Positions 3,774-20,445 of a stretch of DNA of 26,369 nt are shown in pieces. The DNA lies in the IMG/VR virus record IMGVR_UViG_3300037070_008865, positions 1 to 26,369 of that record; one strand, given 5' to 3'. The number at the start of each line of letters is the position of its first letter. Position 1 is the stretch's first letter. This DNA comes from a virus. The notes below the pieces were generated by a model. That model was given only the letters and a program-made list of their open reading frames with translations. It did not search any database and was not told where the DNA came from. A program made the position numbers and the translations under genes.

Positions 3774-4283
3774 ATGATTGAAGATGAAATCAGTGTCATA
3801 ATGAAAGACCTTTTCCCCGTAGTCAAAAAAGACTGTGAAGATTTCATTAATTCCTATGAAGAAAAACGTAACGACCTCAGATCATTCCTCTCCGGCAAGA
3901 TGCCGATGGGGAATATAGATTTTATGGTAGACGTTTTAATGCTCGGTAGATTCGGAAATACATTTGAGAAATCGCAGGAAGTGCTCAAGAGAATTTTTAT
4001 TCTGATGCCTGCCAAGAAAAGATACGGAAATAAGGAGCGCACTGGAATTGATGACGCGGACATTGCACGCGCACGCGAATTGCCGATCACGGATATGGTA
4101 AAGGTCCGCGCGCACACGACTCTTTGTTTGTGGCACGACGACAAAACTCCATCGATGCACGTATACGCGGATAACCACGCGTACTGCTTTGTCTGCAACA
4201 AGCGCGCGGATGCAATCGACTTTTGGATGGAGATAAAAGGTCTCGATTTTATGCAGGCTGTAAAAGACATGCTCCACCTATGA
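3774..4283 (+). CDS. CHC2 zinc-finger primase-like protein, no Toprim domain
   Basis: 169 residues from ATG 3774, which directly abuts the CTGTGGATA repeat arm; ATG 3750, 8 codons upstream, lies inside the palindrome and is less likely. The first 100 residues are helical and acidic (DEISVIMKDLFPVVKKDCED). The C-terminal part is a DnaG-type CHC2 zinc-binding domain: CLWHDDKTPSMHVY, then CFVCNKRADAIDFWMEIKGL and FMQAVKDML, with ligands CxxH...CxxC. In DnaG-like primases this domain binds template and starts the protein, but here it is at the C-terminus and the catalytic Toprim domain is absent. The P-loop ATPase two genes downstream is the probable replication partner. Confidence 0.85.
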   Translation: MIEDEISVIMKDLFPVVKKDCEDFINSYEEKRNDLRSFLSGKMPMGNIDFMVDVLMLGRFGNTFEKSQEVLKRIFILMPAKKRYGNKERTGIDDADIARARELPITDMVKVRAHTTLCLWHDDKTPSMHVYADNHAYCFVCNKRADAIDFWMEIKGLDFMQAVKDMLHL

Positions 4284-7770: not shown

Positions 7771-8100
7771 TTATCCCTGAGGGTGCAATCCTAGCTCATC
7801 TTTGAGGGCGATACTTGCGGTCCTTAAATCCTCGTACTCCTGTTGGCCTACCATGCGGCCGAAATAAGGGCGGTTTTTTGGTAGATCGTTTGTGTAATCT
7901 TTTGGCGCGTCGTCGCTGTCGCCGTCCAGTATGCCGGCCGCGTTTTTATCCAGCTTGCGGCGGCGGAATTCTTGCGCTATGAGCGTGGTGATAAACCCTG
8001 TTTTATTGTGTTGCATATCTTGGGCCATCATCGCGCGTAGCGCGGTAGACGCTTGCGGCGGCAAGATTAATAGCACACGTTCTTTTTTTTCTTTTGGCAT
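7771..8100 (-). CDS. ribbon-helix-helix-type regulator
   Basis: 109 residues. The first 50 residues fit a CopG-like ribbon-helix-helix: basic MPKEKK, the strand RVLLILPP, a helix ASTALRAMMAQDM, a turn HNKT, and helix GFITTLIAQEFRRRK. Dimers of such proteins use the paired strand to grip palindromic operators. The C-terminal half is polar and acidic (DGDSDDAPKDYTN...). It is the last gene of the leftward middle operon, set apart by a terminator-like hairpin. It is a good candidate to bind the TATCCAC palindromes, but that is a guess. It faces the nuclease gene tail to tail across 49 nt in which no clear terminator is visible. Confidence 0.6.
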   Translation of the reverse strand: MPKEKKERVLLILPPQASTALRAMMAQDMQHNKTGFITTLIAQEFRRRKLDKNAAGILDGDSDDAPKDYTNDLPKNRPYFGRMVGQQEYEDLRTASIALKDELGLHPQG

Positions 8101-8123
8101 TTGATTAATTTTTATATGCGAAA

Positions 8124-8152
8124 AGCCGCATACTGCTAGTAAGTATGCGGCT
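8124..8152 (-). terminator. hairpin, possible intrinsic terminator
   Basis: AGCCGCATACT (8124-8134) and AGTATGCGGCT (8142-8152) form a perfect 11-bp stem around a 7-nt loop. In the leftward transcript it is followed by UUU (8121-8123) and lies between the 74-aa gene and the RHH regulator. It may stop or weaken transcription into the regulator. The U-tract is short, so attenuation or mRNA protection is as likely. Confidence 0.5.
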
Positions 8153-8160
8153 GTCGCTGT

Positions 8161-8180
8161 GCGTACCCTTGCGGGTGCGC
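8161..8180 (-). other. second hairpin with GCAA tetraloop
   Basis: In the leftward RNA, ACCC (8173-8176) pairs with GGGT (8165-8168) across a GCAA tetraloop, a stable GNRA loop; the outer GCG/CGC pairs (8161-8163 and 8178-8180) continue past one mismatch. It precedes the 8124-8152 hairpin in the same leader and may work with it. Confidence 0.4.
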
Positions 8181-8194
8181 GGTGCGTTTGCCTT

Positions 8195-8419
8195 TTATTT
8201 TTTTGTCACGTTGTAATATGTGACCGATTCGTGTACCTGTTTTTTTCCGAAGTGGTATGTGTGTACGGTGTAGAATACGCGGCCGGCGCCATCGTCTTTT
8301 AGCGTTATTGTCATGCGGGGCGCGTTTCCCTCTCTCAGTGTGACTGTCAAGCCTTTTGGATCCACTGCGACGCGCTCGCGGCTGGTTGTGTCTGCTATCA
8401 CGGTTGCGGAGTACTTCAT
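8195..8419 (-). CDS. small beta-rich phage protein, unknown
   Basis: 74 residues (MKYSATVIADTTSRERVAVD..., ending YYNVTKK). It is basic and alternates hydrophobic and polar residues, so probably a small beta barrel or sheet. ATG 8419 overlaps the TGA of the 102-aa gene as ATGA, which indicates coupled translation. No family recognised. Confidence 0.7.
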   Translation of the reverse strand: MKYSATVIADTTSRERVAVDPKGLTVTLREGNAPRMTITLKDDGAGRVFYTVHTYHFGKKQVHESVTYYNVTKK

Positions 8420-8724
8420 ATAACCTTGGTGTTACATGTTTTGCAATGCACGGCCGTGAATCCTTTAAGCGAAAGTGAACCGCCGCCCGTGGACCTTGCG
8501 GAGTGAATAGATAGATGAATCGGTACCCATCCCGTGGACTTGCCCACAGTAAAGTGCTTTTTATCCCCAGCCTGTAGGTTATTCCACTCCCATCCCTCGC
8601 GGATAATTCCGACCATGCGATGGCCCTCATGTCCGATAAGTTCGGGGATCAATTGAGAATTGTCGCGCGCCTTTTCACGTTCGGCGCGGCTCATTGCATC
8701 CCATTTTTGCTGTGTCATTTTCAT
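8416..8724 (-). CDS. conserved phage protein with VGxSTGW motif
   Basis: 102 residues. It starts with a helix KWDAMSRAEREKARDNSQL and then has HEGHRMVGIIREGWEWNN, HFTVGKSTGWVPIHLSIHSA and a C-terminal HCKTCNTKV. The pattern 'VGxSTGWxPxHL' after a helical N-terminus is common in small phage proteins of unknown function. Two C-terminal cysteines (CKTC) could bind metal. Both junctions with neighbours overlap as ATGA (8416-8419 and 8721-8724). Confidence 0.75.
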   Translation of the reverse strand: MKMTQQKWDAMSRAEREKARDNSQLIPELIGHEGHRMVGIIREGWEWNNLQAGDKKHFTVGKSTGWVPIHLSIHSARSTGGGSLSLKGFTAVHCKTCNTKVI

Positions 8725-9281
8725 ACGCCGTAGCCGATTAATCGCATACCGTCACACAGTGGTAGGCTTGAATCATTACGCCTATCGTAGACGTACGATA
8801 CCCCCTTGCGGCGTACGACACTGATTGCCGGTGGTAGATAGCGCGTCATGCGCTCGCGGGTCGTTACTGTGTCCCACCCATCAGTATTAAGCGTAATATC
8901 ACCATTTTGATGATAGGTGACAATATCTGTATTGTGTAGGCGGTAGGCGCGGCGGCCGTCGGGATAATTAATCTCGAGGGTGTTGTTTGCTACCCTGCGG
9001 GATATCTTTGCGGCGCTCGTGTCCTTTTTGAACAGGCCTACATATACTTGGAATTGACCGGCGCGCGTGATCGTTGCGAATAGCGGGCCGTGTTCTGTTA
9101 GAGTGGCCGTAATCTCGCGCTCGAATTGTGATTGAGTCAATGCCGGCTCATTATCGGCACCAAAGCCGGATGAATCGACAAAAAGCTCTTTAATGAGTGT
9201 GTAACCCTTGGCGTTCATTGTGTCCTCGGTGCAGATTTTCGCACCAAAAACTTTACTCCATGTTTGCGTGTTTATTTTCAT
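8721..9281 (-). CDS. conserved phage protein with TVTTRERMTRYLP motif
   Basis: 186 residues from MKINTQTWSKVFGAKICTED. ATG 9281 is chosen because the AT-rich sequence right before it resembles other starts here; 19 codons upstream are GC-rich, structured sequence. Residues about 65-110 are LFATITRAGQFQVYVG-type strands; then RLHNTDIVTYHQNGDITLNT and GWDTVTTRERMTRYLPPAI. The combination 'HxTDIVT...GxITLNT.GWxTVTTxxR' is a family common in phages, unknown function, sometimes near DNA metabolism genes. The stop overlaps the next start as ATGA. Confidence 0.75.
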   Translation of the reverse strand: MKINTQTWSKVFGAKICTEDTMNAKGYTLIKELFVDSSGFGADNEPALTQSQFEREITATLTEHGPLFATITRAGQFQVYVGLFKKDTSAAKISRRVANNTLEINYPDGRRAYRLHNTDIVTYHQNGDITLNTDGWDTVTTRERMTRYLPPAISVVRRKGVSYVYDRRNDSSLPLCDGMRLIGYGV

Positions 9282-9337
9282 ATTTAATTGTGAATGAACG
9301 GCGGCACTAGCAAGCGCCGGCGGTGCTTTGTAATGCA

Positions 9338-9401
9338 CCGCGGTCCGCTATCCTGAGTAAAGCTATGCAATGTCGAAAGTTGCAGGGATAGCGGACCGCG
9401 G
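9338..9401 (-). repeat. long 16-bp inverted repeat, structured RNA candidate
   Basis: CCGCGGTCCGCTATCC (9338-9353) pairs perfectly with GGATAGCGGACCGCGG (9386-9401) over a 32-nt loop. Inside the loop TGCAA (9366-9370) and TTGCA (9380-9384) can pair again. No U-run follows on either strand, so it is not a plain terminator. In the leftward transcript it is the untranslated stretch (9282-9405) between the 56-aa and 186-aa genes. Next to it CGGTGC and GCACCG (9321-9340) can form a competing stem, so the RNA may switch folds. Confidence 0.65.
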
Positions 9402-9405
9402 GGCG

Positions 9406-9576
9406 CTACGCGCTCGCGGGGAATTCGGGTACACCAGCGGCTTCTAAAAGCTCTACGTCGCTCGGATCGATATAGGGGATAAGTGATTGTAATTCGGCCA
9501 GTTCACTGAGGCTTATACGCTGTGCGCGGAGTTCGGCGCGCAGGTATTCGAGGCGGGCTTTTACGTCGTTTGTCAT
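9406..9576 (-). CDS. 56-aa helical phage protein
   Basis: 56 residues from MTNDVKARLEYLRAELRAQR, continuing ISLSELAELQSLIPYIDPSD and ending VELLEAAGVPEFPASA. Two amphipathic helices precede the conserved-looking 'SELAELQSL..YIDPSDVELLEAAGVPE' tail, seen in many small phage proteins of unknown role. The ATG lies 4 nt after the TAG of the upstream gene. The sequence is clearly protein-like although it is short. Confidence 0.75.
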   Translation of the reverse strand: MTNDVKARLEYLRAELRAQRISLSELAELQSLIPYIDPSDVELLEAAGVPEFPASA

Positions 9577-9580
9577 ATTT

Positions 9581-9727
9581 CTACGCGTTTAAACTCATAA
9601 AGACGAGAATAAGAGCGAAAAACGCGCACAATAGAATGAATTGCGCAATATATTCGAGTGTATTGCGTATTGCTTTGCGGCGGGCGGTTAGCGGGCGGCG
9701 GGACTTAAGATCGAGAACGTGGGACAT
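9581..9727 (-). CDS. 48-aa single-pass membrane peptide
   Basis: 48 residues. A basic N-terminus (MSHVLDLKSRRPLTARRKAI) is followed by a transmembrane helix of about 20 residues (AQFILLCAFFALILVFMSLN). By the positive-inside rule the N-terminus is cytoplasmic. It is the first gene of the leftward middle operon and lies next to the second divergent control region. Small basic single-pass phage peptides can be exclusion or lysis-related factors, but no function is shown. Confidence 0.65.
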   Translation of the reverse strand: MSHVLDLKSRRPLTARRKAIRNTLEYIAQFILLCAFFALILVFMSLNA

Positions 9728-9758
9728 GGTTTTTAAGGGTTAACGGTTAATATTTAGT

Positions 9759-9786
9759 AGTGTAGCGTATATATATTGTATGTCTA
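9759..9786 (-). promoter_or_regulatory. tentative leftward promoter
   Basis: On the minus strand TAGACA (9786-9781) and TACACT (9764-9759) are spaced 16 nt apart: 5 of 6 and 4 of 6 consensus matches. A start near 9752 would give a leader of about 25 nt before ATG 9727. The operator palindrome (9794-9813) lies just upstream. This is a consensus match only. Confidence 0.35.
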
Positions 9787-9789
9787 GTG

Positions 9790-9817
9790 TTGGTAGTGGA
9801 TAGTTATCCACTATATA
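9790..9817 (+). promoter_or_regulatory. promoter with a palindromic operator between its boxes
   Basis: TAGTGGATAGTTATCCACTA (9794-9813) is a perfect 9-bp inverted repeat around GT. It lies between TTGGTA (9790-9795) and TATATA (9812-9817), spaced 16 nt, so a bound repressor would cover the promoter. The half-site TATCCAC is shared with the arms at 3711-3719 and 3765-3773. Box matches are only 4 of 6 each, so the operator is firmer than the promoter. Confidence 0.55.
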
Positions 9818-9859
9818 AGAAAAACGAGGGTTTTAGCCGTTTTTTGGGTATTAAAGAAC

Positions 9860-9883
9860 ATGAAACGTGGGGGGTGTCAATAG
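9860..9883 (+). other. 7-codon ORF before a terminator hairpin
   Basis: ATG 9860 to TAG 9881 encodes MKRGGCQ. The stop lies 6 nt before the hairpin at 9889. This is the layout of an attenuator leader peptide or a tiny RNA with a peptide; such short ORFs also arise by chance. The run of Gly codons (GGG GGG) is rare-codon-like in many hosts. Confidence 0.3.
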
Positions 9884-9888
9884 AGGCT

Positions 9889-9909
9889 TGGCTAAGTTGA
9901 GCCATTTTT
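9889..9909 (+). terminator. intrinsic terminator
   Basis: TGGCT (9889-9893) pairs with AGCCA (9900-9904) around AAGTTG and is followed by TTTTT (9905-9909). The stem is short. It would end a transcript of about 85 nt from the promoter at 9790-9817. Confidence 0.45.
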
Positions 9910-9940
9910 GCGGAATTCATTTTTGGGGCACGGGCGGCTA

Positions 9941-9946
9941 TATAAT
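9941..9946 (+). promoter_or_regulatory. isolated TATAAT box
   Basis: A perfect TATAAT stands after the terminator, but the -35 position (CATTTT) is poor. It is followed by a poly-T stretch (9970-9990). It could supply transcripts for the late genes. The rest of 9947-10076 holds no gene that I can support. Confidence 0.3.
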
Positions 9947-10076
9947 ACTACACAATCTTAATCGCAACCCTTTATTTTTTTTTTTTTCTTTTTCAATGTA
10001 TTATATAGGGGTAGGAGGGCAACACGCGCGCACGCAAAATAGCGCCAAAGTTAGCCCCCGCGCCCTTGACACGCCG

Positions 10077-10085
10077 TGGTATAAT
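10077..10085 (+). promoter_or_regulatory. extended -10 promoter for a leaderless gene
   Basis: TGGTATAAT is a perfect extended -10 (TGn-TATAAT). It ends 6 nt before ATG 10092, so transcription would begin at about the start codon and the mRNA would have no leader. TTGACA at 10066-10071 is only 8 nt away and cannot be its -35. Confidence 0.55.
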
Positions 10086-10091
10086 AAAAAT

Positions 10092-10301
10092 ATGCAAACA
10101 TTACAAGAGTTGTTGAATGAAGTGGTGCGCGTGAACGCGCCCACGCGCGCGGACGATGAGATCGCCGCAATTTTCTATGAGTTGCACGGTGTTATTCCCT
10201 CACTCGCGCGCATAAGCGCCGCGCGCCGCGCGCTTGGTATTGCGCGGACCTATAAACAGCGCCGGGATATCGCGCGCCGCCGCCGTGCTACATTTAAATA
10301 A
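10092..10301 (+). CDS. small basic protein, first gene of the late block
   Basis: 69 residues from MQTLQELLNEVVRVNAPTRA. The helical C-terminus is very basic (ARRALGIARTYKQRRDIARR, then RRATFK), with a turn-like LARIS before it. It may bind DNA or RNA. TAA is directly followed by the next ATG (0 nt), so it is coupled to the putative small terminase. It could be a recognition cofactor or activator for packaging; no family known. The gene is dense in CGCG. Confidence 0.65.
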   Translation: MQTLQELLNEVVRVNAPTRADDEIAAIFYELHGVIPSLARISAARRALGIARTYKQRRDIARRRRATFK

Positions 10302-10715
10302 ATGAGCAAGCCTATTGATCCTGTTGAAAATGTAGTGAAGCGCGGCCGGCGCACCGGCACTTTGAATAAAAAAACGTTACAAAAAATGCTTGCACTTGAG
10401 CAGGTGCGCGCGATGGTTGCATTTGATATTATCCCCATCACTGAAGCGCTTATTAAAAAAGCAAAAGACGGCGACGTCAACGCGGCGCGCGAGTTGTTTG
10501 ATCGCGCATACGGGAAAAGCGTGCAAGGCCTTGGCTTCATTGATGAGAAAGGCAAGGTATTGCCGCAACCGATTATGAATATCACGTTAGCGCCCGCGCC
10601 AGATCCCGCGCGCGCCGCGCTTCATGTGCCCTCACACGTGCTTAATGACGATACCCCCGCGGATAGTGGGGCGCGCGTGTTGAGTGAAGCGAGTAGTGTA
10701 GAAAAGATAGTGTAA
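10302..10715 (+). CDS. terS: putative terminase small subunit
   Basis: 137 residues. A basic N-terminus (VVKRGRRTGTLNKKTLQKM) is followed by helices LALEQVRAMVAFDIIPITEA and the segment KDGDVNAARELFDRAYGKSV. 'GDxxAAxxLFDRAYGK' after a helical region is common in phage small-terminase-like proteins, which recognise the packaging site and load the large subunit. The tail after residue 95 is Pro/Ala-rich and probably disordered. It is the gene before terL, where terS usually lies. The 212-nt gap to terL holds repeats. Assignment rests on context and this motif. Confidence 0.55.
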   Translation: MSKPIDPVENVVKRGRRTGTLNKKTLQKMLALEQVRAMVAFDIIPITEALIKKAKDGDVNAARELFDRAYGKSVQGLGFIDEKGKVLPQPIMNITLAPAPDPARAALHVPSHVLNDDTPADSGARVLSEASSVEKIV

Positions 10716-10781
10716 AAAAACACCCCCACCGTATGCCCCCATTTTTTTTAGAGAAAGGAACCCCACGGCAGCCCCCGCGTA

Positions 10782-10866
10782 CAAAAATTCTAATTTTCAA
10801 CCGCGCTCCACTCTCCGCGCTCCACTAATCATCTTCTGATCCATATTCCAAAAATATAATTTTCAA
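10782..10866 (+). repeat. repeats in the terS-terL gap, packaging or operator site candidate
   Basis: CCGCGCTCCACT occurs twice in tandem (10801-10812 and 10815-10826, period 14). It is flanked by near-identical AT-rich copies: CAAAAATTCTAATTTTCAA (10782-10800) and CAAAAATATAATTTTCAA (10849-10866). The array ends 11 nt before the -35 box of the terL promoter. Before it, 10716-10781 is C-rich with a T8 run (10742-10749) but has no clean hairpin. Confidence 0.6.
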
Positions 10867-10877
10867 ATTTTAACAAC

Positions 10878-10906
10878 TTGACATAAACCGCGAAACACTT
10901 TTTAAT
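10878..10906 (+). promoter_or_regulatory. terL promoter
   Basis: TTGACA (10878-10883), a 17-nt spacer and TTTAAT (10901-10906) give a near-consensus sigma70-type promoter. The start would be near 10913, leaving a leader of about 15 nt with no Shine-Dalgarno before ATG 10928. It is the best promoter in the window. Confidence 0.75.
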
Positions 10907-10927
10907 ACGAACTCCATAAATAAATTT

Positions 10928-12172
10928 ATGTCGTACCAACCAACAACCGCGATGCAAAGAGTTTCCGCACTCACCCGCCGAATACGCGCGGTCCAAGGTG
11001 GTTCCTCCGCATCCAAGACCATCAGTATTCTCATGTACCTTATCGCCCGCGCGCAGATGGACACCGAGAGACCAACCACTACCTCAATAGTCTCTGAATC
11101 TTTGCCGCACTTGAAGCGCGGCGCCATCCGCGATTTTCTCAACATCATGCGCGAGCACGGCTACTTCAAGGATGAGCGCTGGAACATGTCCGATTTTGTG
11201 TACACCTTCGAGACTGGCTCCCGCATCGAATTCTTCTCTGTAGATCAGCCGGACAAAGTCCGCGGTCCACGCCGCGACCGGCTTTTCATTAACGAGGCGA
11301 ACAATGTTCCCTTGGAAACTTTCGACCAACTTTCAATTCGTACGAATGAATTTATTTTCTTGGACTGGAACCCGACCAATGCTTTTTGGCTGTACACTGA
11401 GGTGTGCGGCTGCGCGAACCCTACCACAGGCTGCACCGGTAAGCAGACGAATATCGATCATATTATTCTTACTTACAAGGACAACGAAGCGTGCCCGCCG
11501 AACATTATCCAAGATATTGAATCCCGTAGAAATCGAACAGAATGGTTCAAAGTCTATGGTCTTGGCCTTCTCGGAGAAGTTGAAGGAAAAATTTACACTG
11601 GTTGGCAAGTGATTGATAAGTTACCATTCACCGCCACCCTCCTCAGGCGCGGCCTCGACTTCGGCTTTACGCACGATCCAACGACCATCGTCAGTGTCTA
11701 CCGTTACGACGGTGGTTTTATCGTCGACGAAGAATTTTATCAAAAGGGCGCGCTCAACAAAACAATTGCGGACACCCTCAACAATCTCTCCGACCCGCAA
11801 ACACTCGTCGTCGGCGATTCCGCCGAACCGAAGTCCATTGAAGAAATAAAATTACACGGCGTCAATATTGTCGGCATAGAAAAAAGCAGAGGAGAAACAA
11901 AAACAGAAACGTGGACGAAGTGGTCGATCAACCTTGTGCAAGAACAAAAGATTCAGGTCACGCGTCGCAGCACCCACATCCTCAATGAGTATCAGAATTA
12001 TCTCTGGGAAGTCGACCGCGATGGTAAGTTGATCTACGAAGCGGAGCACACTTATAGCCACACAATGGACGCGATTCGCTATGCATTGGTCTCCATCTTG
12101 AAAAAGACAAAAATCTACCACTCCACAGCTTCTCCACTCGCCCCCCTTGCCTACCCTGAAATCGGGTTATAA
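10928..12172 (+). CDS. terL: terminase large subunit
   Basis: 414 residues, usual length for a PBSX/Terminase_3-type enzyme. The ATPase half has a Walker A GGSSASKT (24-31), with Ser-Ala in place of the usual Gly-Lys neighbourhood, Walker B DRLFINEAN (117-125) with the catalytic Glu, and the coupling segment DWNPT (146-150). The nuclease half has acidic residues D244 (LDFGFTHD), D297 (VVGDSAEP) and D381 (HTMDAIRYAL), the expected RNase H-like set. It pumps DNA into the prohead and cuts concatemers. An unusual cysteine cluster (CGCANPTTGC, residues 160-169) sits between the two halves and might bind a metal. Confidence 0.93.
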   Translation: MSYQPTTAMQRVSALTRRIRAVQGGSSASKTISILMYLIARAQMDTERPTTTSIVSESLPHLKRGAIRDFLNIMREHGYFKDERWNMSDFVYTFETGSRIEFFSVDQPDKVRGPRRDRLFINEANNVPLETFDQLSIRTNEFIFLDWNPTNAFWLYTEVCGCANPTTGCTGKQTNIDHIILTYKDNEACPPNIIQDIESRRNRTEWFKVYGLGLLGEVEGKIYTGWQVIDKLPFTATLLRRGLDFGFTHDPTTIVSVYRYDGGFIVDEEFYQKGALNKTIADTLNNLSDPQTLVVGDSAEPKSIEEIKLHGVNIVGIEKSRGETKTETWTKWSINLVQEQKIQVTRRSTHILNEYQNYLWEVDRDGKLIYEAEHTYSHTMDAIRYALVSILKKTKIYHSTASPLAPLAYPEIGL

Positions 12173-12209
12173 TGAACACAAGCCCGCAAGGGAGCCAAAC
12201 GGAACAACC

Positions 12210-12416
12210 ATGGCCAAACTCACACTCAATTTTGATAATGTAAGCCAAGAACATCTTGAGCACCAAGATAAATATCGCGAGATTTTCGCCGCGCTTATGA
12301 CCTCCGGTGGCCTCACCGGCGTGAAGTCGGGGCAGACCGTTATCCACTTCGATATGGATGCCAACTTCATGGGCGTGCAGCTAAACTACTGGCCCTTCCG
12401 CAAGCGTAAGCAGTAA
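12210..12416 (+). CDS. 68-aa phage protein, unknown
   Basis: 68 residues from MAKLTLNFDNVSQEHLEHQD, continuing with GQTVIHFDMDANFMGVQLNY and a basic tail WPFRKRKQ. It is preceded by a 37-nt stretch with TATAAT (12168-12173, overlapping the terL stop) and a CCC-GCAA-GGG hairpin (12183-12192), possibly its own promoter and leader. The alternating strands suggest a small alpha/beta fold. No family recognised. Confidence 0.75.
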   Translation: MAKLTLNFDNVSQEHLEHQDKYREIFAALMTSGGLTGVKSGQTVIHFDMDANFMGVQLNYWPFRKRKQ

Positions 12417-12438
12417 GCGCCCATACACACCCACGCAT

Positions 12439-12498
12439 TTGACATCACCACCCCGTAACGCATACTGAAGAAAACCGCCCACCTACACCATAGGCGCG
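12439..12498 (+). promoter_or_regulatory. promoter-leader cassette, copy A (portal gene)
   Basis: TTGACA (12439-12444), 16-nt spacer, CATACT (12461-12466), then AAGAAAA and the 19-bp block CCCACCTACACCATAGGCG (12478-12496). In the RNA, CCTA/TAGG closes a CACCA loop and CGC (12476-12478) pairs with GCG (12496-12498) across an internal loop of ACC against C. The same arrangement recurs at 17404-17463. A second hairpin, GAAAAGA (12498-12504) with TCTTTTC (12510-12516), ends 4 nt before the portal ATG. Confidence 0.75.
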
Positions 12499-12520
12499 AA
12501 AAGAAAAAATCTTTTCATCT

Positions 12521-14326
12521 ATGGCTGAAACAAATCAAGATAGCGGAAAACTCACACTCAATCCCGCGAGCTACACACCCACAGGAAAACTTTTAAAACT
12601 TCTCAACGAAAAAAAATCCGGCCGTGAATTTCAGTCACGCAAGCACCCGGACTGGAATGAGAATTACGAACTGTATCGTAATAAAGTAAAAACAAATCGC
12701 CTCACGCAGCGCCAGACAGTGAACGTGCCGCTGATGAAAGAGACCATAAAAACCCTCCTCTCAAAAGTGGATGATGCGCCGGATGTTGCTTGGCAAGAAA
12801 AGTCAGGCGACGAAATGAAGGAGATTATTTATCAAGAGGTTTGGAACGACGGGTATAAGAATGAAAATCTCGAGACCAAAGATATTATCGATAAGAAAAA
12901 TGTTTTCCTCTATGGTCTCTCTACGAAAACACTCAACTTAACTTCTAAAGGTGTCTGCGTAAATGTGGAGGATCCTTTCAATATTATTTTCGATCCTTTA
13001 ATGAATCCCTTGGACATCGAAACTGCGCGCTTCATTATCCAGCAAAATATTTTCCGCCCCTTGCGCGACGTGCTTGTTGACGAACGATACACCACCACCG
13101 GACGCGACGCGCTGCGCCATTGGCTCGCATCGGATCGCGGACTTATTCAATCTGCGAAAAATAAAGTTGAATTTGAGAAATCGATTGAACGCCTCAAGGC
13201 GATGGGCGTGCAGAACGAAAATTTCGGAGTCTTTGCCGGCGGCGATGTTCTCGTAAATCTCACGCAGCACTTTACTCAACTTTGGGACGATAAAACAAAA
13301 TCTTTCAAGCGCCACGTTGTCGTGTACGGTGATGACACCATCGAACTCATGGACGATCTTCTCGTGGACTGTGTTGGTATCGAAGAATGGCCCATGGACG
13401 TTTGGTATGAGGATCCTGAAGGAAACGATCCGTACCCCGACGGTATCGCCGATCTCGTGCGCACGCCGAATAAAGTTCTCAATGTTTGGTTTTCTCAGCA
13501 AGTAGAAAATCGTACACTTCAGAATTTCCAAATGCACTGGTTCGATGCAACCGTGCAGGGCTACCAGCCGCAGACATATGAGCCGGGTCCGGGCCGCATG
13601 TTGCCGGCGCCGGGCGATCCAAATAAAACGATCATGCCGGTGCAGGTAAACGGTCTCGATGAAACCATGAAGGCCATGGACTACCTCATCCAAATGGTTG
13701 AGCGTGGTACCGGTGCGACCGCACTCGAAAAAGGCGAGCAAACTACCAACGCGCGCACCACTCTGGGCGAAGTTGAACTCCTCGCCGGTAAAGCCGCGGA
13801 GCGCGCGAAGACGATGTCGAAATTCTACAAGGCTTCTTGGTACCGCCTCGCGAAGAAGTGGGACAAAATCATGCAGGCAAACAGCTTCCCGAAAATGAAG
13901 CTTTATAAAACAGGCATCGATGGAAAGGTGTATGAGAAAATCGTCTACAACGTTGACTGGAAATCGAAGGCTGGCTATGAGCCGACGGTAGAATCCTCCT
14001 CGGAACAAGAACAAGACGACATCAAGACGATTCAGAAATTTGGTTTCGTCATCGCGCAGAATCCGAACAACAAAGCACTCAAGCGCATCGCGCAGAAGCG
14101 TCAGTTGAAGGTGCTCGATCTCACAGCCCCAGAACTCAAAGAAGTTGAGGAGGAAGAAGTAAAGCTTCAACAGCAAGAAGCTCTCGCCGCTGCTACTGCA
14201 GCCACACCAGCTACCGACACTAAGACCGCCGCCACTCCTGCGTCACCCGCGGCTGCAACTCCCGCCGCACCTGAAACTGGTGATGCACAGGAGGTTGCTT
14301 CCATGTTGCAACAATTAGTAAATTAA
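12521..14326 (+). CDS. portal protein (P22-like)
   Basis: 601 residues, within the range of podovirus portals (P22's is 725). Residues 40-110 are DWNENYELYRNKVKTNRLTQ-type helices, followed by DIIDKKNVFLYGLSTKTLNL, PFNIIFDPLMNPLDIETARF and a long helical middle. The segment GTGATALEKGEQTTNARTTL (about 397-416) suits the stem and channel-helix region. The last 60 residues are Ala/Thr/Pro-rich and disordered. The portal ring is the DNA entry vertex and the binding site for terminase and tail. It follows terL and a small gene and is the first gene of its cassette. Confidence 0.88.
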   Translation: MAETNQDSGKLTLNPASYTPTGKLLKLLNEKKSGREFQSRKHPDWNENYELYRNKVKTNRLTQRQTVNVPLMKETIKTLLSKVDDAPDVAWQEKSGDEMKEIIYQEVWNDGYKNENLETKDIIDKKNVFLYGLSTKTLNLTSKGVCVNVEDPFNIIFDPLMNPLDIETARFIIQQNIFRPLRDVLVDERYTTTGRDALRHWLASDRGLIQSAKNKVEFEKSIERLKAMGVQNENFGVFAGGDVLVNLTQHFTQLWDDKTKSFKRHVVVYGDDTIELMDDLLVDCVGIEEWPMDVWYEDPEGNDPYPDGIADLVRTPNKVLNVWFSQQVENRTLQNFQMHWFDATVQGYQPQTYEPGPGRMLPAPGDPNKTIMPVQVNGLDETMKAMDYLIQMVERGTGATALEKGEQTTNARTTLGEVELLAGKAAERAKTMSKFYKASWYRLAKKWDKIMQANSFPKMKLYKTGIDGKVYEKIVYNVDWKSKAGYEPTVESSSEQEQDDIKTIQKFGFVIAQNPNNKALKRIAQKRQLKVLDLTAPELKEVEEEEVKLQQQEALAAATAATPATDTKTAATPASPAAATPAAPETGDAQEVASMLQQLVN

Positions 14327-14330
14327 TAGG

Positions 14331-14336
14331 TATAAT
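14331..14336 (+). promoter_or_regulatory. -10 box of a leaderless-type promoter
   Basis: TATAAT preceded by GG ends 7 nt before ATG 14344. The best -35, TTGCAA (14306-14311), has a long 19-nt spacer and lies in the portal 3' end. The layout resembles 10077-10092. Confidence 0.4.
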
Positions 14337-14343
14337 TATCAAT

Positions 14344-16131
14344 ATGAGTAAAGAAATGGGACCACTGAAGAAAATGCTCGAGGACATGCTTGCGCAAAAG
14401 AAGGAAGCAAAGCTGATCGAGGATGCTACGCGCGAGACCAAGGTGTATGAGGAACGAAATCAAATCCTCAGCGGCATCGGAAAGGATATGGGCGGCGTGA
14501 TTCAGCCATTTCTCGACAAACTTGGCGAACACTCGAAGATGTCCGCCGAAGAATTGAAGCGAATCATCTCAGAATCTGTGCAGGTGACTGTTCCGAATAT
14601 CGATACCAGCACTCTTGAGCGCATCCTCGCGGAATCTTTCGCAAATTTCAAAATTCCTGAGCCAAAAATCACGCTCAATGTTCCGAAACAATCACAACCC
14701 ATCGTAAATGTGCCCGCACCAATCGTAAAAATGCCGGATGCGATCCGTTTGACTCCAAATGATAAGCCGTTTCCAGTAATGATGGTGGATCAAGCTGGAA
14801 AACCAATGATGTTTCCTGTTTCTTCTGGCGGCGGAGGTGGCGGCAAGGCAGATTTTTTCACGATCAAGGATATTCAAACATCAACTGGCGCATCGATCAT
14901 TGACGATGCTGGAAATGTAAAAATTTCAGGAGCAATTTCCGTTTCTTCGTCAACTGCGTCGACACAAACGATCGATTCGAGTGGAGATCCATATAGTCAG
15001 GCAAATCCAATGCCTGTCGTCGTTGTTTCTGGCGGCAGTGCGACTACAGCATCCGCAATTGTTGACTCCTCGGGTGTTCAATACTCAGGTTCCAATCCTG
15101 TTCCTATTGCAATCATTTCTGGCTCCTCATCTGGCGCCACCGGTCAAGGCGACGCAGCGTCCGCAACACGTGTTGTGATCGCTGGTAACTCCGACGCATC
15201 TGTCGTCGTAAACAGCGGAACCATCACCACGGTCACAACTCTCACTGGAATCACCAACACCGTTGGTGTTGTCGCACTTGATCGTGACGGCACACCACTT
15301 ACCACTGGACCGATTGCACAAGGTGATTCGGCAACCGCACTTCGCGTTATCTTGGCTGGCAACTCCGACGCCTCCGTCGTCGTCAACTCGGGAACGATCA
15401 CGACCGTGACCACGCTCACCGGCATCACCAACACCGTTGGCGTAGTCGCAGTTGACCGCGACGGCACACCGCAATCGAGCGGACCAGTCGCACAAGGTGA
15501 TTCCGCATCAGCTTTCCGCGTAGTCGTTGCCGGTAACTCTGATGCCTCTGTCGTAGTCAACTCAGGAACACTCACCACTGTCACTACACTCACAAGTATC
15601 ACAAATACCGTCGCCGCCGCGAACGTCGATTCTTCTGGCGTCCAGTATTCAGGGTCAAATCCGATTCCCACGACCCTCGTGGGCGGTGGTCCTGACTCTA
15701 TATTCGTGTTTCAAGCCCGCACCACCCTTCCAACAGCCGTTTCTGATGGTGCTGACGTGCGTCCGAAGGCTGATAAGCTCGGTCGCGGTATATCGCGGCC
15801 CGTTAATGCGCGAGAATTGATAGCGACTGCGTACATTACGCTATCCACGGGCACCGAAACGACACTTTTGGCCGGTACCGCAGGTCAATATATCGACCTA
15901 CTTCAAGTTGTCGCAGCAAACACTTCTTCTGTCGCACAACAGGTAGATTTCCGATGCGGAACAGCAGGAAATATCGTACTTTCTCTATCTATCCCTGCAA
16001 ACGCGACCGCTGGCGCCGTCTTGAACACCCCTTGGCCACAAGACGCGACCGGAAACACGTGGACAGCCGATGGTCCCGATAACACGAACTCAAGCATCCT
16101 AATTTCAGCGCTATTCAGTAAGGAATCTTAA
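14344..16131 (+). CDS. repeat-rich virion protein, probably fibre or decoration
   Basis: 595 residues. The first 75 are charged coiled coil (KEMGPLKKMLEDMLAQKKEA). Then a Pro/Val strand region (KITLNVPKQSQPIVNVPAPI), a Gly-rich hinge GGGGGG at about 160, and then three near-copies of DSSGxxYSxxNPxP(V/I) units. Between these lie three 58-residue repeats (NSDASVVVNSGTITTVTTLT). These low-complexity Ser/Thr/Val strands resemble trimeric beta-solenoid fibre shafts. The C-terminus (DLLQVVAANTSSVAQQVDFR, LLAGTAGQYIDLL) is a globular beta domain. A role in host attachment or the virion surface is likely, not shown. Confidence 0.8.
   Translation: MSKEMGPLKKMLEDMLAQKKEAKLIEDATRETKVYEERNQILSGIGKDMGGVIQPFLDKLGEHSKMSAEELKRIISESVQVTVPNIDTSTLERILAESFANFKIPEPKITLNVPKQSQPIVNVPAPIVKMPDAIRLTPNDKPFPVMMVDQAGKPMMFPVSSGGGGGGKADFFTIKDIQTSTGASIIDDAGNVKISGAISVSSSTASTQTIDSSGDPYSQANPMPVVVVSGGSATTASAIVDSSGVQYSGSNPVPIAIISGSSSGATGQGDAASATRVVIAGNSDASVVVNSGTITTVTTLTGITNTVGVVALDRDGTPLTTGPIAQGDSATALRVILAGNSDASVVVNSGTITTVTTLTGITNTVGVVAVDRDGTPQSSGPVAQGDSASAFRVVVAGNSDASVVVNSGTLTTVTTLTSITNTVAAANVDSSGVQYSGSNPIPTTLVGGGPDSIFVFQARTTLPTAVSDGADVRPKADKLGRGISRPVNARELIATAYITLSTGTETTLLAGTAGQYIDLLQVVAANTSSVAQQVDFRCGTAGNIVLSLSIPANATAGAVLNTPWPQDATGNTWTADGPDNTNSSILISALFSKES
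15145..15612 (+). repeat. 174-bp tandem repeat, 2.7 copies
   Basis: Units begin at 15145, 15319 and 15493 (period 174 nt, 58 codons), each opening with CAAGG(C/T)GA. The third breaks off after the codons for ITNTV. The copies differ at synonymous and a few non-synonymous sites, so they are not very recent. In-frame length allows copy-number change without frameshift. Confidence 0.85.
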
Positions 16132-16132
16132 T

Positions 16133-16357
16133 ATGGAAAGTTTTGATTCGTTGTCTGAATCTGAAAAAGAATCGAAACTTCTTGATACTGAATGGTCTGC
16201 AAGGTCGGATGTAATTCTAACTAATGAGTGGGTAGATAAATGCAAATATTGTCTTGATAGAGAGTTGAAGATTATAAACGACGATAAGAACCAGAAAAAA
16301 AGAATTGATATTATCGCCGTGATTCAGAGTGAAATTGAAGCAAAGAGACCTGTATGA
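16133..16357 (+). CDS. small acidic protein, unknown
   Basis: 74 residues (MESFDSLSESEKESKLLDTE...). It is charged and helical, with a pair CKYC (about 37-40). The base composition is more AT-rich than the neighbouring structural genes. It starts one T after the previous TAA (TAATATG) and ends as ATGA into the next gene, so the two are probably a unit. Possibly a chaperone or accessory of the fibre-like protein that follows; no family recognised. Confidence 0.7.
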   Translation: MESFDSLSESEKESKLLDTEWSARSDVILTNEWVDKCKYCLDRELKIINDDKNQKKRIDIIAVIQSEIEAKRPV

Positions 16358-17388
16358 AATTAACAAGAATCCTCCCCAAAATAATGGCTGAAATAACGAG
16401 ACACCCTCGTTATCAGCCTGAAATAAAATGGTCTGAGAACTTTTGGACTCATAATATTTTCAGATTATGGGAAGTTGTTTTTTGGAGGCGCTACGGCCCT
16501 CGTCGAGAAATAACGGCAACAAGGTATGCCGATGGAACTTCCGAACAGTTCGCTCACTCATGGGAGGGGACATTTGCACTTATAGAAGTTCGTCTGCGCT
16601 ATTTTCTTTCATGGAGACCATCTCCGGTTAGACTTCAAATAGTGATTTTAAGAACACCGGAAGGATTGCAAATACCAATACCGTACTTATTTGCGATTGC
16701 GCGGCCTGATTCTCCCGGAGATTCAACACCAAAATCAACTGACCCTTATTCGTACTCACATACAGTATCGGGAACTGACACATACATGTTGTGTTGGAAC
16801 ACTACCAACACTTCCGCAACTACAACAAGTGGAATAACATATGCGTCAGTGGCTCTTTCTTCTCGTCAAAGTGACGTTGGTGTTCAAACGGGTTCTAGTC
16901 GCGCGATTTACATGTTTTCACTTCATGCGCCAACAACGGGAACGAATACTCTCGAAGTTGATTTGTCAGGCGCGCCCGGTGCTTGGAGTAAAGCGGTGAG
17001 CGTTTCTTATACTGGCGTAGATCAATCCACTGATTTCACAACTGTTCATAATTCAAATAAGACAGTGGGTACTGCTGTCAGCACAGTTTCACCAACTGTG
17101 ACTGTGAATGTGGCTAATTCAATATTAGCTACAAATTTCGACGCTGCGGGGAGTGACGGAACGGCGAGCACCAACGCTCAAGAAGTCCTTGACCCTTCTG
17201 ACGGTTATCACGAGCCGATTATATTTGAAAACTCTAGTTTAACGGGACAGGCAGTGGGTAGTCAATCAATGACCATTACCTTCTCTATTTCGGGAGTGGT
17301 TTGTTTGATAGCGGCTCTTGCGCCATCAGGAGGTGCAGCCCCCGCTACAATAGTAGTACCCACGCTGCTCTACATGGGGGCAGGTTGA
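16354..17388 (+). CDS. fibre-like or adhesin-like virion protein
   Basis: 344 residues. The N-terminal 120 are Arg/Trp-rich (FRLWEVVFWRRYGPRREITA; WRPSPVRLQIVILRTPEGLQ). Residues about 125-325 are Ser/Thr/Val-rich beta sequence (TSGITYASVALSSRQSDVGV, AVSTVSPTVTVNVANSILAT) that looks like one or two Ig-like or jelly-roll domains. The C-terminus is a hydrophobic tail (TFSISGVVCLIAALAPSGGA) ending in LLYMGAG. Such tails occur in phage surface proteins. The gene is AT-richer than the flanking genes, a hint of separate origin. Receptor binding or membrane contact is possible. Confidence 0.72.
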   Translation: MKLTRILPKIMAEITRHPRYQPEIKWSENFWTHNIFRLWEVVFWRRYGPRREITATRYADGTSEQFAHSWEGTFALIEVRLRYFLSWRPSPVRLQIVILRTPEGLQIPIPYLFAIARPDSPGDSTPKSTDPYSYSHTVSGTDTYMLCWNTTNTSATTTSGITYASVALSSRQSDVGVQTGSSRAIYMFSLHAPTTGTNTLEVDLSGAPGAWSKAVSVSYTGVDQSTDFTTVHNSNKTVGTAVSTVSPTVTVNVANSILATNFDAAGSDGTASTNAQEVLDPSDGYHEPIIFENSSLTGQAVGSQSMTITFSISGVVCLIAALAPSGGAAPATIVVPTLLYMGAG

Positions 17389-17403
17389 TATCCACTGTCC
17401 ACA

Positions 17404-17463
17404 TTGACACCAGTCCAAAACACCGCATACTTAAGAAAAGCTCCCACCTACACCATAGGCGAG
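17404..17463 (+). promoter_or_regulatory. promoter-leader cassette, copy B (110-aa gene)
   Basis: TTGACA (17404-17409), the same 16-nt spacer, CATACT (17426-17431), AAGAAAA and the same 19-bp block (17443-17461). The hairpin is kept, but the outer pairs are CTC (17441-17443) with GAG (17461-17463) in place of CGC/GCG: the middle pair changed from G-C to U-A on both sides. The stem end to ATG distance is 21 nt here and 22 nt in copy A. Confidence 0.75.
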
Positions 17464-17484
17464 TCTCGAAAGGGATAAATCGCT

Positions 17485-17817
17485 ATGGCCACCAAAGCAA
17501 AACCAACCAGAGTTCTCTCCAGACTTCTCGAGAAAAGAGGTATTGCCGACGTTAAAGATCTTGCTCCTGAGGAGCAGGCTACACTTGAAAAATGGAAGTT
17601 GGTGCTCACTGGCGCCACTCTTACTGTCGACACTCTCAAAGAATTCTGCCAATCGCAGCTTAGGGTTATTGAATCGAAGTGTGACGGCGTTACGCCCCTC
17701 ACCACACTTCAACAGGCGTCCATGCACGTCTACATCAATCTTCTTAAGGCCATCGAGGCACCCGAGGCGGAGCGCGCTTCACTCGAGCGGTATCTGACGC
17801 AGATCGTAAATGCTTAA
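17485..17817 (+). CDS. conserved-looking phage protein, unknown
   Basis: 110 residues. Basic start (MATKAKPTRVLSRLLEKRGI), then helices: DVKDLAPEEQATLEKWKLVL, DTLKEFCQSQLRVIESKCDG, and LQQASMHVYINLLKAIEAPE with ERASLERYLTQIV. The pattern suits a small helical virion-assembly protein; similar ones sit near scaffold and coat genes in podoviruses. Its own promoter-leader cassette suggests a strong or timed supply of the head-gene block that follows. Confidence 0.75.
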   Translation: MATKAKPTRVLSRLLEKRGIADVKDLAPEEQATLEKWKLVLTGATLTVDTLKEFCQSQLRVIESKCDGVTPLTTLQQASMHVYINLLKAIEAPEAERASLERYLTQIVNA

Positions 17818-19122: not shown

Positions 19123-20445
19123 ATGAGTAGACTTACAAATTTCGGCCAGCAATTCTCAACGAAAGTGCTCGCCAAAACTTATCAGAATTCCATCGTGGAT
19201 TCGGTCGTAAACCGAAACTACGAAGGTGAGATCAAGAAACCGGGTGACCGCGTGAACATTCTGTCGTTCCTGAATTCAGGAACCCTCAACGATTATGTCG
19301 TTGGAACAGACATGTCTTCAGAGGCACTTGTCGATTCTCAGGACCAGTTGGTTGTTGAAAAACGCCGCTACTGGAACTTTGCAATTGATCGCCTCGAAGA
19401 TCAGTTCACCTATGCGGACGACATCGTCGACCACATCTCGAACGACTACGCTAAACAGCTCGAAAAGGAAGTAGACACCTACGTCCTTGATCGTATGGCT
19501 GCTGGCGTTCGCGCGGGCAACTGGATCGGTGTCAACCTCAAGGTTGAAGGATCAGGCCTCACAATGGCTTCGATCACCACCACCGCTACCGGCGGTACGA
19601 TCACGATTCAGGGTTATCCTGACGCGTCGATCTCGTCTGTCGAGAACCCTCTCGATGGTCAGCTTTACTGGGGCGGTTTCCACGCATCTGATATCGGCAA
19701 GGGCGTTCGCCTTCGCTCGTCAGCTTCGTTCGTTTCCCCTTGGTACCGCATCTCCGGCGTTACTGACTCGGTCACAGCAACCATCACTGAATGGGATGAG
19801 GCCACCTCTGGTTCTGACTTTGAGGAAGGATTCACTCTCCGCGGTCTCTTCGGAGGCGACGGCGTGAACTTCCCTAAGGGCGGTTCTGGCGATGCTTCGC
19901 TCATGACCATGTCATCTCTCGGATGGGAAATTCAGGCTGCTATCGCAACCTCGGTCTCCGGTGCTTCTATCTACAACCAGATCACTCTGCTTGCAGAAGC
20001 GCTCGACCAAGGCGAAGTAGACAATGTTGATCGTCACCTCACGGTGCCGGCTCAGGTTGTCACTCAGCTCAAGCAGTCCTCGGCACTTCAGCCAACAGGT
20101 ATCGCAGAAATCTTCACGGGTACGGTCATCAATGGCCGCGTCATGCGTGTCGGTGCCTTCGATGTCCACTTGGCTGCTGGATCACGCGTTTCAACACGTG
20201 CTGGTCACCCAACGGTTGCTGCTGCAGACATCGGTCCATCGGTTGTACCTGTCACGGGTGCTATCGGTAACCAAATCGTCGCCAACCACACTGGCTTCAT
20301 CACCTTCGCTGAGAAGTGGAGTGAGAGTCGTGTCGTCGACGCCGAAAACCAGTTCGCCAAGAAGTATCAGGGCTTGTTCCTCTACGGAGCAAAGGTTCCT
20401 GCGTATCGCCGCAAGTACGCTGCGATGCTCTTCGGATCGTTCTAA
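19123..20445 (+). CDS. major capsid protein (P22 coat-like)
   Basis: 440 residues, close to the 430 of P22 gp5. The N-terminal arm (FGQQFSTKVLAKTYQNSIVD) leads to KKPGDRVNILSFLNSGTLND (strand and E-loop region) and then RRYWNFAIDRLEDQFTYADD with DHISNDYAKQLEKEVDTYVL (spine helix). An inserted beta region (about 150-245, GLTMASITTTATGGTITIQG) may be the extra domain. The C-terminal half has DNVDRHLTVPAQVVTQLKQS and NGRVMRVGAFDVHLAAGSRV, a typical HK97-fold end. Codon use is C-ending and biased (CTC, GAC, ATC), as in a highly expressed gene. Confidence 0.88.
   Translation: MSRLTNFGQQFSTKVLAKTYQNSIVDSVVNRNYEGEIKKPGDRVNILSFLNSGTLNDYVVGTDMSSEALVDSQDQLVVEKRRYWNFAIDRLEDQFTYADDIVDHISNDYAKQLEKEVDTYVLDRMAAGVRAGNWIGVNLKVEGSGLTMASITTTATGGTITIQGYPDASISSVENPLDGQLYWGGFHASDIGKGVRLRSSASFVSPWYRISGVTDSVTATITEWDEATSGSDFEEGFTLRGLFGGDGVNFPKGGSGDASLMTMSSLGWEIQAAIATSVSGASIYNQITLLAEALDQGEVDNVDRHLTVPAQVVTQLKQSSALQPTGIAEIFTGTVINGRVMRVGAFDVHLAAGSRVSTRAGHPTVAAADIGPSVVPVTGAIGNQIVANHTGFITFAEKWSESRVVDAENQFAKKYQGLFLYGAKVPAYRRKYAAMLFGSF

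Follow-up and report, generated by a model that had tools for sequence, protein, structure and literature searches.

A covarying leader hairpin behind the promoters of phage virion genes, a likely RNA switch

Two promoter-leader cassettes in the window (the whole stretch of DNA analysed here, an entire IMG/VR record of 26,369 bases) carry a 23-nt hairpin, hairpin 1, of which we tabulated at least 52 copies in related phages, just behind a sigma70-type promoter. The sequences themselves show how the promoter is laid out, that the hairpin covaries and overlaps a terminator or a start codon, where it lies, and that it recurs across unrelated phage families. We consider it likely that the element acts in cis as an RNA switch where virion-gene transcripts begin, and that a factor not yet identified would stabilise hairpin 1 and turn the capsid genes on; the switching, its direction, the factor, the transcripts and their timing are all inferred.

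A preliminary description of the window had reported a promoter-leader cassette occurring twice, at 12439-12498 and 17404-17463, and a check of the sequence found both copies at exactly these coordinates. Each consists of TTGACA, a 16-nt spacer that is dissimilar between the copies, CATACT, one variable base, AAGAAAA and a 19-bp identical block, CCCACCTACACCATAGGCG. The recurrence is far beyond chance, as shuffles give essentially none, and no further match to the 19-nt block or to the promoter part was found in the whole window with up to 3 mismatches. The same description had proposed a CCTA-CACCA-TAGG hairpin extended by CGC/GCG or CTC/GAG, which held with a refinement: a 3x1 internal loop (CCA on one side, C on the other) parts the outer stem from CCTA/TAGG, so that the structure is a single hairpin with an asymmetric internal loop. 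The reported G-C to U-A double change does keep pairing and falls on the second of the three outer-stem pairs (12477/12497 in copy A, 17442/17462 in copy B); between two copies it is weak evidence, becoming strong only with the homologues. The placement ahead of the portal and the head-assembly block also held, and most relatives have the element at the portal and at a second head operon. The cassette features and the genes concerned are as follows.

12439..12466, + strand: copy A promoter (TTGACA at 12439-12444, 16-nt spacer, CATACT at 12461-12466), from the cassette check; most of the 52 copies have a similar layout
12476..12498, + strand: copy A hairpin 1, CGC-CCA-CCTA-CACCA-TAGG-C-GCG (outer stem, 3x1 internal loop, inner stem, pentaloop), supported by covariation and a covariance-model hit of 27.6 bits
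12478-12496, + strand: 19-bp identical block, copy A
12521..14326, + strand: portal protein gene
17404..17431, + strand: copy B promoter (TTGACA at 17404-17409, 16-nt spacer, CATACT at 17426-17431), from the cassette check
17441..17463, + strand: copy B hairpin 1, CTC-CCA-CCTA-CACCA-TAGG-C-GAG, supported by covariation and a covariance-model hit of 29.2 bits
17443-17461, + strand: 19-bp identical block, copy B
17485..17817, + strand: gene for a small helical protein, first of the head block
19123..20445, + strand: major capsid protein gene, downstream of copy B (phrog_267, E=1e-21)

The gene order in the window is terminase large subunit, a small gene, copy A, portal, putative tail-type genes, copy B, a small conserved gene, a scaffold-like gene and the major capsid protein. 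PHROG and Pfam searches gave no match for the portal gene; its assignment rests on an AlphaFold model (mean pLDDT 67) that matches solved portals, best the SU10 portal (E=3e-14). The 17485-17817 product (~105 residues, helical) matched no known fold in a search against the PDB, and its gene, present in 17 of 17 family-A records compared (family A is defined below), lies directly behind or before the element in these records. Elsewhere in the window, two 174-nt direct repeats, 75% identical, lie at 15145-15492 within the 14344-16131 gene, which encodes a repetitive putative tail-type protein, and the phage encodes a type IV pilin-like protein (FTLIEMIVVVAIIGILAAIV; 1571-2185, - strand) and a small membrane protein (2188-2649, - strand).

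Portal and capsid searches of viral contigs yielded about 40 related records, which we call family A. Nearly every family-A portal has a sigma70-like promoter upstream, followed at once by the shape of hairpin 1 in different letters, and most family-A genomes carry another promoter-hairpin copy, placed ahead of the 17485 homologue or shortly behind it. The exceptions are L190, where the element is degenerate, and L157, where the portal has moved elsewhere; L145 has, by eye, a form of the hairpin with an AAAAA loop. In most of the 52 copies the promoter consists of a TTGACA-like box, 16-19 nt, and a TATAAT-like box usually 7-15 nt before the element. These boxes meet the sigma70 type, for which a spacing of 16-18 nt was required, and the late promoter proposed in the preliminary description is supported in its layout, by sequence only; no transcript start has been mapped, and lateness is not shown. 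Two records have a third copy. One (L129, 13952-13974) precedes a 22859-type gene and shows an 8-bp perfect pairing from hairpin 1 to the start-codon region; the other (G022 C1, ~13394-13600, - strand) has a terminator, and the ~100 nt ahead of it resemble another structured RNA behind a TATAAT box. A separate feature of one family-A genome (G002; L209/L210) is an insertion between terminase and portal (8079-16355 and 19439-19852) that holds genes for the biosynthesis of sugars or the cell surface (transketolase halves, a DegT-type aminotransferase, an epimerase, a sugar amidotransferase and a methyltransferase) together with an acyltransferase; these names were given by eye. Homologues of this block occur in 10-14 of 17 family-A records, and the window fragment is without it.

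Hairpin 1 is a conserved structured RNA in which pairing is kept while the arm sequence diverges. Its consensus comprises an outer stem, the 3x1 internal loop, an inner stem of 3-4 bp and a NACNN loop, and the letters conserved outside the stems are an A before the inner stem, the A and C of the loop and the lone C of the 3' side. Across 21 copies gathered by hand, pairing is seen in 91% of cells and drops to 31-50% when the partners are slid out of register, and two-sided changes occur at all 7 of 7 pairs (41 in total, a value reached by 0 of 500 shuffles, versus 13 in shuffles). An alignment of 45 copies gives a similar outcome, again with two-sided changes at all 7 pairs, although this alignment leans towards the structure model.

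A covariance-model search of relatives found more copies, with compensatory changes at every pair. In the first set, the structure model (R1) returned 38 hits from 28 sources; every one lies on the coding strand, and 35 were judged real. Because the seed copies (A1) were selected partly by shape, the fair test is the one on held-out loci. On 15 such loci R1 returned 15 hits at E<=10, each in the sense orientation; with the exception of L191, a weak hit, they sit in leaders ahead of portal or head genes, as expected. A sequence-only model built from the same alignment without structure found 2. The held-out loci include near-duplicates (L169/L170/L171; L183/L184), leaving about ten independent finds. 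None of the Rfam 15 covariance models matches the element, and a search of the open literature returned no description of the motif. Among candidates set aside, three weak R1 hits (L139:6164, L147:18429, L140:18897) were rejected, an exact 14-mer scan of viral contigs with ACCTACACCATAGG gave mostly chance matches, and the pattern hits L201/G029 and many of L247-L324 fall inside coding regions and have neither a promoter nor a terminator.

The 3' arm of hairpin 1 doubles as the 5' arm of a second hairpin, which in most copies is an intrinsic terminator, with at least 5 T among the 8 bases after the stem in 39 of 47 copies. In the 42 copies with a U-tract, the terminator hairpin takes 5-8 nt of the hairpin 1 3' arm, and by computed free energies it is more stable than the best structure keeping hairpin 1 in 41 of them (the G030 copy was cut short in this comparison). 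The distance from the end of the terminator stem to the ATG is short (median 9 nt, IQR 7-11.5). Ten further leaders, mostly from other families, have a similar overlap between the two hairpins. It should be noted that the computed free energies assume equilibrium; the RNA folds while it is being transcribed, and hairpin 1 is then the first to form.

Nine copies have no terminator: both window copies, L127, L005, L129:13952, L131:2873, L142:13743, L146:3544 and G001. Compared with shuffled leaders, pairing with the start codon is enriched in these nine (combined p=4e-4) and not in the terminator copies (p=0.79); the no-terminator class was defined after looking at the data. Examples are CUCAUACC:GGUAUGAG in L129 and CCAUUGG:CCAAUGG in L146. 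In the window copies, which are without a U-tract terminator, a CCAUAG:CUAUGG helix covers the AUG instead.

12488..12493, + strand: CCATAG, 5' strand of the alternative helix of copy A (hairpin 1 loop and 3' arm), predicted to pair with 12519-12524 (P ~0.98)
12519..12524, + strand: CTATGG with the portal start codon (12521), 3' strand of the alternative helix, in the full-leader fold (p=0.037 versus shuffled leaders)
17453..17458, + strand: CCATAG, 5' strand of the alternative helix of copy B, predicted to pair with 17483-17488
17483..17488, + strand: CTATGG with the start codon (17485) of the downstream gene, in the full-leader fold (p=0.137 versus shuffles)

Hairpin 1 has a probability of ~0.006 in the full-leader fold of copy A and ~0.01 in that of copy B. 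The copy B helix is partly frayed, with per-pair probabilities from 0.98 down to 0.38 at one end, and taken alone its start-codon helix is not significant against shuffles. Shine-Dalgarno motifs are nearly absent (0-20% of genes) in the window and all family-A and family-B records, and T is strongly preferred just before the ATG (-1) in the same set; we infer that in such genes occlusion of the AUG would be a natural way to block translation. The preliminary description had suggested an antiterminator or a translational regulator, and both halves find inferential support, the terminator mostly in relatives and start-codon occlusion in the window copies, with no bound factor shown.

The promoter-element-terminator unit also precedes the portal in phages whose portals are unrelated in sequence.

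Family B: G028, G030, G031, G033, L262, L296
Family C: L205
Family D: L272, L289

In family E (L305), whose portal is distantly related to that of D, the unit precedes the scaffold and capsid block. No named phage relatives were found for the portals of A, D or E, and the only named relatives of the B portal are a TM7 phage (the nearest) and a spring-water phage. In the TM7 phage (MG269973.1, L325), the portal leader has a promoter and no element; this TTGACA/TATACT promoter lies only ~13 nt before the portal ATG (3890-3950) and offers a useful contrast. The spring-water phage with the B-type portal (MW202566.1; L326, 1-838) encodes GroEL according to its annotation.

The hosts are likely Patescibacteria (CPR), tiny cells whose viruses are uncultured, an assignment that rests partly on MAG binning. 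A 1.2-Mb MAG (G049) contains a family-A capsid fragment and a phage contig (L329) with the full unit before a portal-like gene. A missing ribosomal protein L30 marks Patescibacteria. In the phylum of this MAG, L30 is found in 3 of 59 and S8 in 56 of 59, and genomes are mostly 0.5-1.4 Mb; because L30 is mostly absent, S8 is present and the genomes are small, we take the phylum to be Patescibacteria. Binning can err, and two other family-A contigs were binned as Bacteroidetes and Elusimicrobia. The element was not seen elsewhere in 380 genomes of this phylum, nor before metabolic genes there; five weak hits in the chromosomes were rejected as chance. A search among the phage genes for a regulator common to all families found none; the factor may therefore be host-encoded or too diverged to see.

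In the proposed switch, transcription would start a few bases before hairpin 1, which would form within a few nucleotides of the predicted start. Unaided, the RNA would pass to the more stable second hairpin, and the message would stop or the AUG be hidden; that this hairpin is more stable in nearly all copies argues for a gene that is off by default. A trans-acting factor, most likely an RNA-binding protein, would read the A before the inner stem, the A and C of the loop and the bulged C, and by holding hairpin 1 would open the portal and head operons to read-through or translation. That unpaired bases are conserved and that the element is confined to virion genes make us favour a protein over a metabolite. 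Against the switch stand the lack of transcript data and of an identified factor, and the TM7 phage related to family B, which has a promoter at its portal yet no element. A bolder reading, for which we see as much reason to doubt as to believe, is that an undescribed, transferable RNA switch is the common control of virion genes in several unrelated lineages of Patescibacteria (CPR) phages, with one shared factor, perhaps host-encoded, and an output freely exchanged between termination and start-codon occlusion.

Among other explanations, the best surviving, though unlikely, is a put-like element, in which the folded nascent RNA binds RNA polymerase and the adjacent terminator is ignored without a trans factor. 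The 5'-terminal position on the transcript and the failure to find a common phage regulator speak for it; against it, put action needs no overlap with a terminator arm, and some copies without a terminator pair with the start codon, which modification of the polymerase would not serve. It is also improbable that the leader merely yields a short RNA that ends at the terminator, as a phage small RNA or a 5' stabiliser, with the gene read from upstream and the overlap reflecting compaction. A strong terminator does end most copies, but its spacing to the ATG is tight, and where it is missing hairpin 1 persists and the ATG tends to be occluded. We find very little room for a metabolite riboswitch with hairpin 1 as a very small aptamer for a cellular ligand: an aptamer with interchangeable expression platforms is riboswitch-like, but the element occurs only before phage virion genes and not before metabolic genes in the 380 Patescibacteria genomes, an RNA of 23 nt with a single internal loop would be a tiny aptamer, and no Rfam family matched. 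A DNA operator for an activator or repressor overlapping the promoter is even harder to sustain; CCTA-N5-TAGG does form a short dyad right after the -10 box, but only pairing is conserved in the arms, G-U pairs included, and the 3x1 asymmetry and the variable distance to the promoter (roughly 7-15 nt) do not suit a DNA dyad. That a promoter stretch was recently duplicated and has no role as RNA, as two near-identical copies in one genome might suggest, is practically ruled out by homologues that diverge in sequence while keeping the pairing through compensatory changes.

Gene control in phages of the largely uncultured Patescibacteria is poorly known, and the switch reading gives it a testable handle, an element with a clear on/off structure that predicts which transcripts terminate, where the factor binds and which bases are key. 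It would also be an example from nature in which a single RNA sensor domain is coupled to more than one kind of output, and the element can serve as a marker to find more such phages.

Several known systems offer parallels. HK022 put RNA and the lambda N-boxB system are phage leader RNAs near a promoter, with a small-loop hairpin, that control later genes. The element shares these traits, the control by inference, but its direct competitor is the neighbouring terminator or start codon, and processivity has not been demonstrated for it. Like LoaP and its dfn hairpin (PMC12691694), it would link a leader RNA hairpin to antitermination; LoaP is a NusG paralogue that acts processively on long operons. 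In RAT leaders (BglG/SacY/LicT), a protein holds the antiterminator hairpin and read-through follows (PMC3369936). As in these leaders, the 3' part of the antiterminator hairpin is the 5' arm of an intrinsic terminator and the two are mutually exclusive in silico, except in the window copies, which are without a U-tract. Unlike RAT, whose stem has two asymmetric internal loops, the element has one 3x1 loop, is 23 nt long, serves phage virion genes and has a start-codon platform in some copies. The CAT_RBD domain (PF03123) was absent from 15 phage records, which are partial, and from the MAG G049, while 4 control genomes were positive. ANTAR-responsive leaders (nasF, amiE, eut) likewise have an antiterminator hairpin that overlaps the terminator, but they carry two stem-loops whose loops contain A1 and G4 (PMC3369936), whereas the element is a single hairpin before the terminator with a NACNN loop and no A1/G4 loops. 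A search for ANTAR-domain proteins gave no match and was uninformative, as the control genomes were silent too. With one internal loop, no A1/G4 loops and no CAT_RBD protein, the element falls outside both classes and belongs to neither, yet by analogy it resembles the RAT and ANTAR antiterminator leaders in its mode of action.
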